Source: Bordetella parapertussis (GTDB lineage Bacteria; Pseudomonadota; Gammaproteobacteria; Burkholderiales; SG8-41). From it: a stretch of DNA of 64,000 nucleotides. The translations under genes were made by a program, and so were the position numbers. Positions 26,967 through 34,449 of this stretch are shown here, piece after piece. The stretch spans positions 62,001-126,000 of the forward strand of contig CAMATZ010000008.1 in assembly GCA_945861275.1 (NCBI GenBank), read 5' to 3'. The notes under the pieces were generated by a model that saw nothing but the letters and a program-made list of their open reading frames with translations, did no database searches and had not been told where the DNA came from. The stretch's first letter is position 1. Every line of letters starts with the position of its first letter.

Positions 26967-27851
26967 ATGCACGCCCTGTTGCCCCGAACGCTCGCCAAAT
27001 TTGTGATTGCCTTTGCGCTCGCCGTTTGCATCGGCAGTTGCGCTACTACGTCTTCGCAATTATTCACGCAAGCGAGCGGCGTGCAACGCATGTTTGTGTT
27101 CAATTGCGGCGAATCGACAGTCAGCGATGTGTCGCGCTGGACACCCGGCGTCAACGTGGGCAAGCCCGGTGAATTTAGCGCCAACTGCTATCTGATCCAG
27201 CATGCACGGGGCTGGATGATGTTCGACTCCGGCATTAATGACAACGTGGCCACCATGCCCAAGGGTTTCCAGCGCGGCAAAGATTCGCCGCGCTACATCC
27301 TGCGCAAACCGCTGCGCGTGCAGCTTGCGGAAGCGGGGGTTGATCCCAAACAAATCACGCATGTCGCGTTTTCGCACACCCACGGCGACCATGTGGGCAA
27401 CGGCAATTTGTTCAGCAACGCGACGCTGTATATCCAGCAGGCCGAATACGATATCGCGTTCGGGTCCGAGGCCGTGTCGAAATGGAATTTTGAGGTTAGC
27501 AGCTACGACAAACTGCGTGCGAACCCGATGCTGCGGCTTAACGGCGACCATGATGTCTTCGGCGACGGCACGGTGGTGCTGATTGCCACACCGGGGCACA
27601 CACCCGGCCATCAATCGCTGCTGGTGCGGCTACCCAGGCGCGGGCCGGTGATACTGTCCGGCGACATGGTGCATCTGCAGGATAACTGGGCGCAGCGTCG
27701 TGTGCCCGCGTTCAACTTCAACCGCGAACAAAGCCTGCAGTCGATGGAAAAAGTAGCCGCACTGATGAAAAAAACCGGCGCGCAACTGTGGATCAATCAC
27801 GACAAGGCGCAGAGCGACCAGATTCCCAAGGCGCCAGCCTATATCGAGTAG
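26967..27851 (+). CDS. Exported MBL-fold hydrolase (N-acyl homoserine lactonase-like)
   Basis: A 294-residue metallo-beta-lactamase-fold protein. The metal site SHTHGDHVGNGN is near residues 136-147, and later TPGHTPGHQSLLV and LSGDMVH give the remaining ligands; this set matches the AttM/AiiB-like lactonases. The N-terminus is a signal peptide with a possible lipobox (IGSC, Cys 25), so the protein should be periplasmic or a lipoprotein, unlike most lactonases. An AAGGAG site precedes the ATG. Substrate (lactone or ester) unknown. First gene of a three-gene run. Confidence 0.85.
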   Translation: MHALLPRTLAKFVIAFALAVCIGSCATTSSQLFTQASGVQRMFVFNCGESTVSDVSRWTPGVNVGKPGEFSANCYLIQHARGWMMFDSGINDNVATMPKGFQRGKDSPRYILRKPLRVQLAEAGVDPKQITHVAFSHTHGDHVGNGNLFSNATLYIQQAEYDIAFGSEAVSKWNFEVSSYDKLRANPMLRLNGDHDVFGDGTVVLIATPGHTPGHQSLLVRLPRRGPVILSGDMVHLQDNWAQRRVPAFNFNREQSLQSMEKVAALMKKTGAQLWINHDKAQSDQIPKAPAYIE

Positions 27852-27904
27852 TCAATGAATCCAGTCTTTGCAGAAACTTAACAGACACAATACGGGAGAT
27901 CAAC

Positions 27905-28924
27905 ATGCGCTATCTCGATTTACTTGCCCGCTTGAGCGCCTGTGCCGTGCTCGCCGTCGCCGCGTCATCTGCCCAGGCACAACAGAAATTCCCGCTCGCC
28001 GCGCCCGCTGGTGTCGACAGCAATGCGCGGCAAGCAGCGCCCCCCGGTGCGGTGAATCAGGGGCCATTCGACATGTCCACCTGGAAATATGGCGGCGCAT
28101 TTAACGCGCCGGCGGGCGCGAAAATCTGGAATCCCGCCAAGATCAAGCTGCTGCAGGGCGGCAAGGTGGTTGGCGGCACGGTGCGCGGCGTGCGCGATCC
28201 GAGCACCTATTGCACGATGGCGAATGCCGGCTATGATTTCATCTGGACTGAAATGCAGCACGAGCCTTCGAGCTGGCGCGACGTGGCGAACGCGTGGCGC
28301 ACCTGCCCGCGCGCCAAGGCCGTACCTGGCGTGCGCATCGCCTACACCGATGAACGGGAAATCGCGCATGCGCTCGACAGCGGCGCGCTGGTGCTGGTGG
28401 TGCCGACGGTCGATACGGTAGAGGAAGCCAAAGAGGCGGTGAAATGGGCCTACTTCCCGCCACTGGGCAGCCGCAGTCAGGGCGGCGGCCCGGCGTTTGA
28501 ACCCGACATGTGGGGCAGCGTCCCCGGCGGCTACCGCAACACCATCAACGACAATCTGGTGCTGATCGTTATGATCGAAACGCTTGAAGGCCTCAGGAAC
28601 GCGGACGAGATCGCCAAAGTGCCCGGCATCCACGCCGTATTCGCGGCCAGCGGTGACCTCAGTAATTTCTCCGGCTACCGGCAGGGCGACCCGGATTATG
28701 AGCGCGCTATCAACATCGTTCACGATGCGGCGATCAAAGCGGGCAAAAAGCTCTGCGGGCCCTTCGCCTGGAAGGATCGCCCGGATTTCACCTGCTTTCA
28801 GGCGGGGCACGAAATGACGCAGATCACACGCGGCGCGCGGGCCGAATTGGGTGATCTCGCCAACACACAAGGCAAGCCTGAAGTGGGGCCGTTTGCGGCT
28901 CCCGCACCTGCTGCGCCCAAGTAG
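27905..28924 (+). CDS. HpcH/HpaI aldolase-like protein with signal peptide
   Basis: A 339-residue protein with a class II pyruvate-aldolase core after a signal peptide (SACAVLAVAASSAQAQQ). Core signatures are VRIAYTDEREIAHALDSGA, VPTVDTVEEAKEAV, the metal Glu in VMIETLEGL and the metal Asp in ASGDLSNF. Such aldolases are normally cytosolic; export is unusual and suggests periplasmic or outer-membrane action, or a changed function. About 60 extra residues (including a Pro/Ala-rich tail) surround the core. The chosen start follows GGGAGATCAAC. It is 53 bases after the lactonase gene. Confidence 0.85.
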   Translation: MRYLDLLARLSACAVLAVAASSAQAQQKFPLAAPAGVDSNARQAAPPGAVNQGPFDMSTWKYGGAFNAPAGAKIWNPAKIKLLQGGKVVGGTVRGVRDPSTYCTMANAGYDFIWTEMQHEPSSWRDVANAWRTCPRAKAVPGVRIAYTDEREIAHALDSGALVLVVPTVDTVEEAKEAVKWAYFPPLGSRSQGGGPAFEPDMWGSVPGGYRNTINDNLVLIVMIETLEGLRNADEIAKVPGIHAVFAASGDLSNFSGYRQGDPDYERAINIVHDAAIKAGKKLCGPFAWKDRPDFTCFQAGHEMTQITRGARAELGDLANTQGKPEVGPFAAPAPAAPK

Positions 28925-28934
28925 CCAGTCAATC

Positions 28935-29936
28935 ATGCAACGCAGCGCCTTTACGGCTCTCGAAGGAGCATTCGCGAAGCGCTCATGGGCTGCGGGCCTG
29001 GTGTTGAGCGCCGCCTGCTGCGCGCAAACAACGCTGGCGCAAGGTTATCCGTCGAAGAGCATCCGGCTTATCGTGCCATTTCCGCCCGGTGGCGGCAGCG
29101 ATTTCATCGCACGCGTGTGCGCGCAAAAACTGGCCGCATCCGCCGGGCAACAGGTGATCGTGGACAATCGTCCCGGCGCCGGCGGAACCCTGGGCGTGGA
29201 ATTGGGCATGAGGGCGCCGGTGGACGGTTACACGTTGACTTTGATCGCCACCAGCTACAGTGTCAATCCGAGCGTGTACAAGCTCCCCTTCGATCCGGTA
29301 AACGACATCACACCCGTCATTCAGCTTTCGCAGGGACCCTTTCTGCTGGCGGTTCATCCCTCGCTGCCGGTGAAAACGGTGCAGGAGTTGATTACGCTGG
29401 CGCGCGCGCGGCCCGGCCAACTGAGCTACGCATCCAGCGGCACGGGCAGTGGTGTACATCTCGCGTCCGAGTTATTCCTCGAACGCGCCGGCATACGCGT
29501 GCTGGGTGTGCCCTACAAAGGCACCGGCCCGGCGCTCAACGACACCGTTGCCGGACATGTACAGATGCTGTGGGGCAGTGTCGCCACAACGCTGCCGCAG
29601 GTCAAGGGAGGGCGGCTGCGCGGCATCGCGGTGAGTACTGCGCGGCGCATCCGCACTGCGCCTGATATTCCTACGGTCATGGAATCGGGTTTCAAGGATT
29701 ACGACGTGGTGTTGTGGCACGGGATCATCGCGCCCAAAGGCCTGCCACAACCGATCGTGAGCCGGCTCAACACCGACTTGAACAACGCGCTGCGCGAAAA
29801 GGACATGGAAGACCGGCTCGCCGCCGATGGCGTGTCACCCGCGGGTGGAACCCCGGCGCAGTTTCTGGAGGAAGTCAGAAAGGCCATCGACATGTGGGGC
29901 GGCGTGGTGAAGCGGCTGGGGATTAAGGCCGAGTGA
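28935..29936 (+). CDS. Bug/TctC-type periplasmic receptor (B)
   Basis: A 333-residue receptor with signal peptide (VLSAACCAQTTLAQG), ligand loop VPFPPGGGSDFIAR, VIVDNRPGAGG, and VLGVPYKGTGPAL. The ATG at 28935 lies 10 bases past the aldolase stop; the longer frame in the ORF track overlaps the aldolase gene and is rejected. Linkage to two predicted exported enzymes suggests that it captures the product or substrate of those enzymes in the periplasm. It ends convergent with receptor C, 30 bases away. Confidence 0.92.
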   Translation: MQRSAFTALEGAFAKRSWAAGLVLSAACCAQTTLAQGYPSKSIRLIVPFPPGGGSDFIARVCAQKLAASAGQQVIVDNRPGAGGTLGVELGMRAPVDGYTLTLIATSYSVNPSVYKLPFDPVNDITPVIQLSQGPFLLAVHPSLPVKTVQELITLARARPGQLSYASSGTGSGVHLASELFLERAGIRVLGVPYKGTGPALNDTVAGHVQMLWGSVATTLPQVKGGRLRGIAVSTARRIRTAPDIPTVMESGFKDYDVVLWHGIIAPKGLPQPIVSRLNTDLNNALREKDMEDRLAADGVSPAGGTPAQFLEEVRKAIDMWGGVVKRLGIKAE

Positions 29937-32412: not shown

Positions 32413-33327
32413 TTATGATAGTTCTTCAGACTGGCGTCTCGCACCCAGCGTGGTCTGTAGAAAGCCGGGATCGAAAACTTTGTTCGCCAGAACCTGACAG
32501 CGCTTCATCAACCGCAGTTCATCGGGCTGGTAGTCGGCTACTGCACAGTGCCACGTGCCGAGGTGATCCCACATCAGCACATCACCCACCGTCCAGTGGT
32601 GGGTGTAGCGATACTTCGGTTGCAGCACATGCGCGAACAAGGTGTCGAGCATCTTCTGACTTTCATCAGGTCCCAGTTCGTTGATGCGCACGGCAAAACC
32701 GGGGTTCACATAAATCACCTTGCACCCGCTGATGGGATGGGTGAGAAATACCGGGTGCGACACCGGCGGGCGTTTGCGGCGCTCCTCTTCGCTTAACGGC
32801 GGACGTTTGCTGCCCTTGCGCCGCATGAGCTCGTGAAAGTTGTTCCAATCGTGCAACGCGGTTGCGTTCGCGAGCTGTGCTTTTAGCGCGGCGGGCAGGT
32901 CTTCGTAAGCGGCCTGGGTATTGGTGAAGTCGGTGGCGCCCAGCGGCTTGCCGTCTCTCACCGGCACTTTGTGCGCCACCAGTACATTGACGAAGCCCGG
33001 TGTCTGGTTGTAGGTCATGTCGGTGTGCCAATCCTGCCCCGCGTCCGGGGTGCCGATATAACGGCCATTCTCCACGACATTGGAAAGGATGGAGACTTCG
33101 GGCATGCCCGGCTCCGAATTTCGCGACAGCACCTGCAGTTCGCCGAAGCGCGCCGAGAACGCTCGCAATGCGTTGGCGTCAATCGGTTGCCTGGGAAAAC
33201 ACAGCACACCATATTGCCCGAGCGCGCGCATAACGCACGCATGATCGGCATCCGCGAGCGGATGAGCGAGATCAACGCCGGTGACCGTGGCGCCCAGTAT
33301 GGCGTTGCCGGGTTCGATTTTGAGCAT
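32413..33327 (-). CDS. TauD/TfdA family dioxygenase (1)
   Basis: A 304-residue Fe(II)/2-oxoglutarate-dependent dioxygenase. The iron ligands are in the motif DWHTDMTYNQ (His-x-Asp) and in GTWHCAVADYQ (distal His), with Arg for 2-oxoglutarate in RLMKRCQ. The start at 33327 follows GGAAGGACAGCCCT, and the protein begins MLKIEPGNAILGATVTGVDL, as usual for the family. The ORF track runs 60 codons further through non-coding sequence. Substrate unknown; sulfonates and aryloxyalkanoates are known family examples. It is transcribed away from receptor E. Confidence 0.9.
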   Translation of the reverse strand: MLKIEPGNAILGATVTGVDLAHPLADADHACVMRALGQYGVLCFPRQPIDANALRAFSARFGELQVLSRNSEPGMPEVSILSNVVENGRYIGTPDAGQDWHTDMTYNQTPGFVNVLVAHKVPVRDGKPLGATDFTNTQAAYEDLPAALKAQLANATALHDWNNFHELMRRKGSKRPPLSEEERRKRPPVSHPVFLTHPISGCKVIYVNPGFAVRINELGPDESQKMLDTLFAHVLQPKYRYTHHWTVGDVLMWDHLGTWHCAVADYQPDELRLMKRCQVLANKVFDPGFLQTTLGARRQSEELS

Positions 33328-33438
33328 AGGGCTGTCCTTCCGCTTTGTCGGTCCACATGCGCATCGGCAAACTGACGCAGCCGAATGACGTAATATTAGC
33401 AGACACACCGGCACCCGGTCCGGTGAAGGAAATGATTC

Positions 33439-34449
33439 ATGGCTATACACTCTCGCATTGCGGCGCTCGCATTGCTGACAGCAACGGCATTCCCGATCGC
33501 GCTGCATGCGCAGACCGCTTCGCCCTTCGACAAGAGCTCAGGAGGCGCAGGACAGGCCTTTCCCGCGAAGCCGATACGCGTGCTCATTGGCTTCACGCCA
33601 GGTGCGGGTGTGGATATCGCCGTGCGCCTGATCGGGCCTAAAATGAGCGATGCGCTGGGCCAGTCCATCCTCGTCGATAACCGGCCCGGCGCCGGCGGCA
33701 ACATCGCCGCGGAATTAGCCGCACGCGCGCCGGCCGATGGTTATACGCTGCTGGCCAACGGCGCCCCCGCCGCAATCGCGCAGACGCTGTATGCGAAGTT
33801 GTCCTACGACCTGCTCAAGGATTTCGAGGCCGTCGCGCTGGTCGCGAGCGTGTCGCAACTGCTGGTCGTGCATCCGTCACTACCGGCGAAGAGCGTGAAG
33901 GATTTTGTGGCGGTAGCCCATGCCCGCCGCGGCGAACTGAGCTATGCCACCACCGGCAGTGGCAGCACGCCGCACCTGACCGCGGAAATGCTCAGGATGC
34001 AAACCGGCATCCAGATTCTGCATGTGCCGTACCGCGGCACGCCGCCCGCGCTCACCGATCTCATCGCGGGTAATGTGACCTTCATGTTTGCAAACATTCT
34101 TTCGGTGCTGCCACAGGTGCAGAACGGCCGCCTGCGCGCGCTGGCCATCACCAGCGCAAAACGCAACGCCATCACGCCCAACCTGCCCACCATCGCGGAG
34201 ACCTATCCGGGTTTTGAATCAGGAAGCTGGTATGCGCTGTTTGCGCCCAGCGGCACACCCAAAGAAGCCGTGGCGCGACTGCACGACGCGGTGACCCGCG
34301 CCATGCAGTCGCCCGAGGTGCGCGACAAATTCATCGCGCAAGGCGCGGAACCGCTGTCCGGCACGCCGCAGGACGCCGCCGCCTACACCCGCGCCGAAGT
34401 CGCGAAGTGGGGCAGGGTGGTGAAGGCTTCGGGCGCGCGGGTGGATTGA
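33439..34449 (+). CDS. Bug/TctC-type periplasmic receptor (E)
   Basis: A 336-residue receptor: signal peptide (LALLTATAFPIALHAQT), ligand loop GFTPGAGVDIAVRLIG, LVDNRPGAGG and ILHVPYRGTPPAL. The 'GAGVD' loop departs from the usual 'GGxxD'. A GAAGGAAATGATTC site precedes the ATG. It is divergent from the dioxygenase gene at 33327 with a 111-base shared promoter region, an arrangement that suggests joint regulation of uptake and attack on one substrate. Confidence 0.91.
   Translation: MAIHSRIAALALLTATAFPIALHAQTASPFDKSSGGAGQAFPAKPIRVLIGFTPGAGVDIAVRLIGPKMSDALGQSILVDNRPGAGGNIAAELAARAPADGYTLLANGAPAAIAQTLYAKLSYDLLKDFEAVALVASVSQLLVVHPSLPAKSVKDFVAVAHARRGELSYATTGSGSTPHLTAEMLRMQTGIQILHVPYRGTPPALTDLIAGNVTFMFANILSVLPQVQNGRLRALAITSAKRNAITPNLPTIAETYPGFESGSWYALFAPSGTPKEAVARLHDAVTRAMQSPEVRDKFIAQGAEPLSGTPQDAAAYTRAEVAKWGRVVKASGARVD

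Follow-up and report, generated by a model that had tools for sequence, protein, structure and literature searches.

Three consecutive genes on one strand raise the question of whether neighbouring exported enzymes form a pathway or merely share an address. The initial annotation described an MBL lactonase-like protein, an HpcH/HpaI aldolase-like protein and a Bug receptor, all with signals, and proposed periplasmic ring opening and aldol cleavage feeding the receptor. HpcH/HpaI aldolases are textbook enzymes of the cytosol, where they serve the breakdown of aromatics and sugar acids. The window is the whole stretch of 64,000 nucleotides that was analysed, and the relevant features are as follows.

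26967 to 27851, forward strand: MBL-fold hydrolase, predicted lipoprotein (Pfam Lactamase_B, 75.5 bits)
27905 to 28924, forward strand: HpcH/HpaI-fold protein, predicted to be exported (Pfam HpcH_HpaI, 73.4 bits)
27905 to 27979, forward strand: predicted signal peptide of the aldolase, residues 1-25 (...SAQA25^QQ, SPase I type), assigned with the N-termini of relatives
28250 to 28261, forward strand: EMQH motif of the aldolase, residues 116-119, where cytosolic enzymes have DGEH/DMEH
28935 to 29936, forward strand: TctC/Bug receptor BugA with signal peptide (Pfam TctC, 223.6 bits)

Gene run and export signals

The MBL and aldolase genes are separated by 53 bases, and the aldolase and BugA genes by 10 bases, all on the same strand. 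The sequences AAGGAG and GGGAG lie directly 5' of the starts of the MBL gene and the aldolase gene, respectively. All three Pfam scores exceed the curated cut-offs, with a gathering score of 25 for PF03328 in the aldolase and a cut-off of 27 for TctC in BugA. N-terminal export signals, scored by eye and with a simple hydrophobicity score, are seen in all three products, that of BugA ending in ...TLAQ. Judged from its sequence, BugA is an ordinary TctC receptor. Open reading frames, Pfam matches and N-termini agree, and the description of three consecutive genes with export signals stands.

Distribution of the exported aldolase group

The aldolase comprises the signal peptide, an N-terminal extension, conserved and about 50 residues long, and a TIM barrel spanning residues 77-320 approximately. 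Scanning genome contigs retained 80 aldolase loci out of 120 relatives, mostly from Acidobacteriota and also from Alpha-, Beta- and Gammaproteobacteria, some record names being misleading bin labels. The N-terminus is readable at 77 of these loci, two being cut before it and one lying at a contig edge. A signal-like N-terminus is present in 77/77, a degree of conservation well beyond chance; start codons were picked by a signal-rating score, which biases this count towards signals, and the cytosolic paralogs of the window's own genome, scored identically as a control, failed (0/7). In the relatives the N-terminus usually opens with charged residues and has a hydrophobic segment, behind which a proline-rich linker often comes; L113, which is among the 77, carries a frameshift further inside the gene. 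Divergent relatives (about 35-60% identity), drawn from genomes reached via the acidobacterial and alphaproteobacterial loci, show a signal-like N-terminus in all 11 that were read. An HpcH/HpaI protein with an export signal is indeed unusual, as had been suggested.

The group is commonest in Acidobacteriota and patchy in the host betaproteobacterial family. Matches at E up to 1e-60 occur in 32 of 297 genomes sampled from the phylum of one acidobacterial locus. The gene is present in 7 of the 74 genomes of the host family, the window's own counted; in an order sample (399 genomes drawn) it appears in the same genus only, and in a phylum sample (399 genomes drawn) in the window's own genome only, at E up to 1e-60. 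Scanning viral contigs confirmed no aldolase relative, and no plasmid record covered at least 80% of the aldolase protein.

In a quick tree the exported sequences all lie to the same side of a starred branch, and the seven betaproteobacterial sequences, including that of the window, form a starred group within a tree that is mainly acidobacterial. These placements suggest transfer of the aldolase gene between phyla. The cytosolic rows of the tree are few, long and from one genome, so a single origin of export, or monophyly against all HpcH/HpaI proteins, is unproven. Divergent exported HpcH/HpaI subgroups with 35-50% identity were also encountered (L123, L124, L125, L127-L130, L132 and L133), most of them shorter and all devoid of the C284/C297 pair.

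Comparison with four relatives gives dN/dS values of 0.06-0.10 for the aldolase. A search of open-licence papers for HpcH/HpaI aldolases that are exported or located in the periplasm found nothing relevant. The exported group is widespread and apparently undescribed.

Fold and active site of the aldolase

All 71 sequences of the alignment match PF03328 at E up to 0.001. The AF2 model built from these 71 sequences is a confident TIM barrel (pLDDT 88.5, pTM 0.83), which Foldseek matches with a probability of 1.00 to YfaU, HpaI and HpcH; the best match is 2vws, and SbnG and macrophomate synthase are also matched.

Residue roles were taken from HpaI, in which Glu149 and Asp175 are metal ligands and Arg70 and His45 are catalytic (E. 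coli numbering; PMC8560999). The residues that correspond to them, E225 and D251 for the metal and R144 and H119 for catalysis, are invariant in 82/82 exported sequences, as is D158. E116 and Q118 of the EMQH motif are equally invariant. At position 116 the genome's seven cytosolic paralogs all have Asp, as do HpcH and YfaU, and the Asp42 of the D-x-E-H motif is absent from the exported group, with Glu116 in its place in every one of the 82 sequences. Position 118 is Glu in HpcH, YfaU and 5/7 paralogs. Relative to HpcH, the active-site changes are D to E, E to Q and Q to M, and they could reflect another kind of chemistry or a role in binding.

Four cysteines further distinguish the exported group. 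C103 is found in 82/82 sequences and C134 in 81/82, while C284 and C297 are both present in 73 and both absent in 9; none of the four occurs in the genome's own cytosolic paralogs. This paired presence and absence fits two disulfides.

The altered motif bears on the possibility that the exported group is catalytically unlike aldolases, acting as a synthase, decarboxylase or hydrolase through its EMQH site. The invariant Asp to Glu and Glu to Gln replacements point in that direction, as does the fold itself, which also hosts SbnG (4tv5) and macrophomate synthase (1izc). The aldolase likewise misses the HpaI NCBIfam equivalog cut-off by a wide margin (95.1 vs 368.8 bits) and scores far below those of GarL and YfaU. 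However, the barrel remains HpaI-like, neither the metal ligands nor the catalytic Arg and His are lost, Gln at position 118 also occurs in some cytosolic paralogs, and Met at position 223 occurs in most of them. Such a departure in catalysis is a tentative alternative and rather unlikely.

Predicted MBL lipoprotein

The N-terminus of the MBL protein is of the lipoprotein type (...CIGSC25ATT), with the lipobox IGSC25 and Ala at +2, and the protein is probably membrane-anchored. The lipobox Cys is present in 11/11 proteins, comprising that of the window and ten orthologs read. Together with the N-termini of the aldolase relatives, this bears out the statement that both enzymes carry export signals.

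The HxHxDH motif is present, and the zinc ligands are H137, H139, D141, H142, H211, D233 and H278. The best PDB match is 9khq (E 3e-34), and His236 aligns with the Tyr of 9khq at the active-site Tyr position after the bridging Asp. The gene at 26967-27851 and its counterparts at L022-L032 form a conserved lipoprotein family in which His replaces the lactonase active-site Tyr. The protein shares the MBL fold, the HxHxDH motif and the zinc ligands with the AttM/AiiA-type N-acyl homoserine lactonases, and differs from them in its lipoprotein signal, in His236 and in scores far below the equivalog cut-offs (AttM, 132.7 bits vs 390; AiiA, 122.5 vs 375). Of the lactonase-like label, the fold and zinc ligands hold up, but every lactonase cut-off is missed, and "lactonase" can be taken as a lead only.

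Gene neighbourhood and Bug receptors

The MBL gene is carried by 12 of the 74 host-family genomes; linkage to an intact aldolase is confined to the window and G073. The intact MBL-aldolase-Bug order exists in the window only. In G073, a 46-base gap separates MBL and aldolase, and a DedA-like gene and a hydrolase come next, the receptor being missing; the order is absent from the other five aldolase-bearing genomes of the family. There the aldolase neighbourhoods read BugC-aldolase (G004), BugB-BugC-aldolase-TauD-BugD (G064), Bug-Bug-aldolase (G044) and TAXI-Bug-aldolase (G043), with G065 lacking an adjoining Bug. MBL genes without a linked aldolase are found in G004, G064, G043 and others, and the genomes G065 and G044 carry the aldolase without any MBL ortholog.

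The nearest relative, G068, retains an intact MBL gene whose product is 95% identical to that of the window. Two deletions remove the counterparts of window positions 27877-28121 and about 28243-29316, leaving an aldolase remnant of 42 residues joined to a BugA without its N-terminal part (L114, 8709-9439); these deletions may be an assembly error in a draft genome. The MBL gene of G068 is still constrained after loss of the aldolase (dN/dS 0.14). The two close species probably inherited the three-gene order from their common ancestor, and it decayed later. A three-gene operon was rejected on grounds of synteny: the window alone has the complete order, G068 a decayed one and G073 two of the genes.

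Outside the host family, flanks of up to 8 kb around the recovered aldolase loci contain no Bug and no recognisable MBL relative. Clustering the neighbours of the 80 loci showed that no family turns up at over 10 of them or keeps a constant position.

Two further arrangements were seen near the aldolase. A divergent pair of a TauD-type dioxygenase and a Bug gene lies at window positions 32413-34449, and such a pair is found near the aldolase in four genomes (the window, L015, L016 and L017), where it is more stable beside the aldolase than MBL or BugA. In G044, the strand opposite the aldolase encodes a distinct, signal-bearing MBL-fold protein nearby (L019, 8304-9215).

The window contains 13 Bug open reading frames between 18463 and 58204, BugA among them, and the genome has at least 150 TctC/Bug matches vs 8 TctA matches, a large expansion of orphan Bug receptors. 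Bug genes are so common in this genome that Bug adjacency to any gene says little. Rhodoplanes sp. Z2-YC6860, with 434 Bug/TctC copies, shows a similar receptor expansion (PMC5994714); it belongs to another lineage, and the count given here is a lower bound.

These observations weigh on the single periplasmic pathway that had been proposed, in which a lipoprotein lactonase would open a lactone, the aldolase would cleave the resulting hydroxy-oxo acid and the Bug receptor would take up the product. The short gaps, the common strand, the export signals of all three products, the MBL-aldolase pair of G073 and the joint damage to aldolase and receptor in G068 are in its favour. Against it stand the restriction of the intact order to the window, the separate occurrence of MBL and aldolase genes in family members, the continued constraint on MBL in G068 and the bare flanks outside the host family. 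The pathway is highly unlikely, and the conservation of gene order expected in relatives did not materialise, an intact copy being found in none of the other genomes searched. Pathway logic drawn from neighbours is unsafe in genomes full of Bug receptors.

Proposed function

The preferred reading, to which a probability of about 0.7 is assigned, is that of a distinct, conserved, Sec-exported HpcH/HpaI-fold group acting alone as a periplasmic metal-dependent enzyme of the C-C lyase type, with unrelated neighbours. The gene, the signal-like N-termini, the modelled fold, the residue conservation and the absence of linkage are observed; the periplasmic location, the disulfides, the use of metal and the catalysis are inferred. 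The aldolase would be exported by Sec, lose its signal and then fold in the periplasm, where disulfides C103-C134 and C284-C297 would stabilise it. As a metal-dependent TIM-barrel enzyme it would break (or make) the C-C bond beside a 2-oxo acid, its substrate being a 2-oxo acid or hydroxy-oxo acid, with an acid-base region altered from D-x-E-H to EMQH. It would work without pathway partners, the MBL gene upstream and the Bug gene downstream having presumably been placed by turnover in a Bug-rich region. That the exported protein is instead a non-catalytic binding or structural protein on an aldolase fold, as the altered motif and the lack of conserved enzymatic neighbours might suggest, is scarcely credible given that the tested metal-ligand and catalytic positions are invariant in 82 sequences from several phyla.

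For the exported metal-dependent enzyme, the broader proposal is that an HpcH/HpaI-fold clade moved to the periplasm, acquiring disulfides and the EMQH site and serving extracytoplasmic C-C chemistry in Acidobacteriota and Proteobacteria, which appears slightly better than an even bet. The exported branch is conserved, is subject to strong purifying selection and occurs mainly in bacteria of soil and freshwater that are poorly cultured. If the proposal is true, C-C chemistry of 2-oxo acids is also extracytoplasmic. Thanks to its conserved sequence signature, the exported group is easily recognised and easily tested.

Comparison with known enzymes

The exported aldolase shares with the 4-hydroxy-2-oxoheptanedioate aldolases HpaI/HpcH (4b5s, 2v5j and 7et8) the TIM barrel, the PF03328 domain and the equivalents of the metal ligands, Arg and His. 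Unlike them it has a signal peptide, the conserved N-terminal extension and the conserved pairs of cysteines, and it replaces Asp42 by Glu and the following Glu by Gln; the identity is about 26%. The enzyme of 2vws is its top structural match (E 9.8e-18) and its second-best PDB sequence match, and is set apart by the same differences, with an NCBIfam score of 81.9 vs a cut-off of 441. The SbnG citrate synthase and macrophomate synthase have the same fold and perform other C-C chemistry; at 21-26% identity in the structural match, their likeness to the exported aldolase is one of fold alone.
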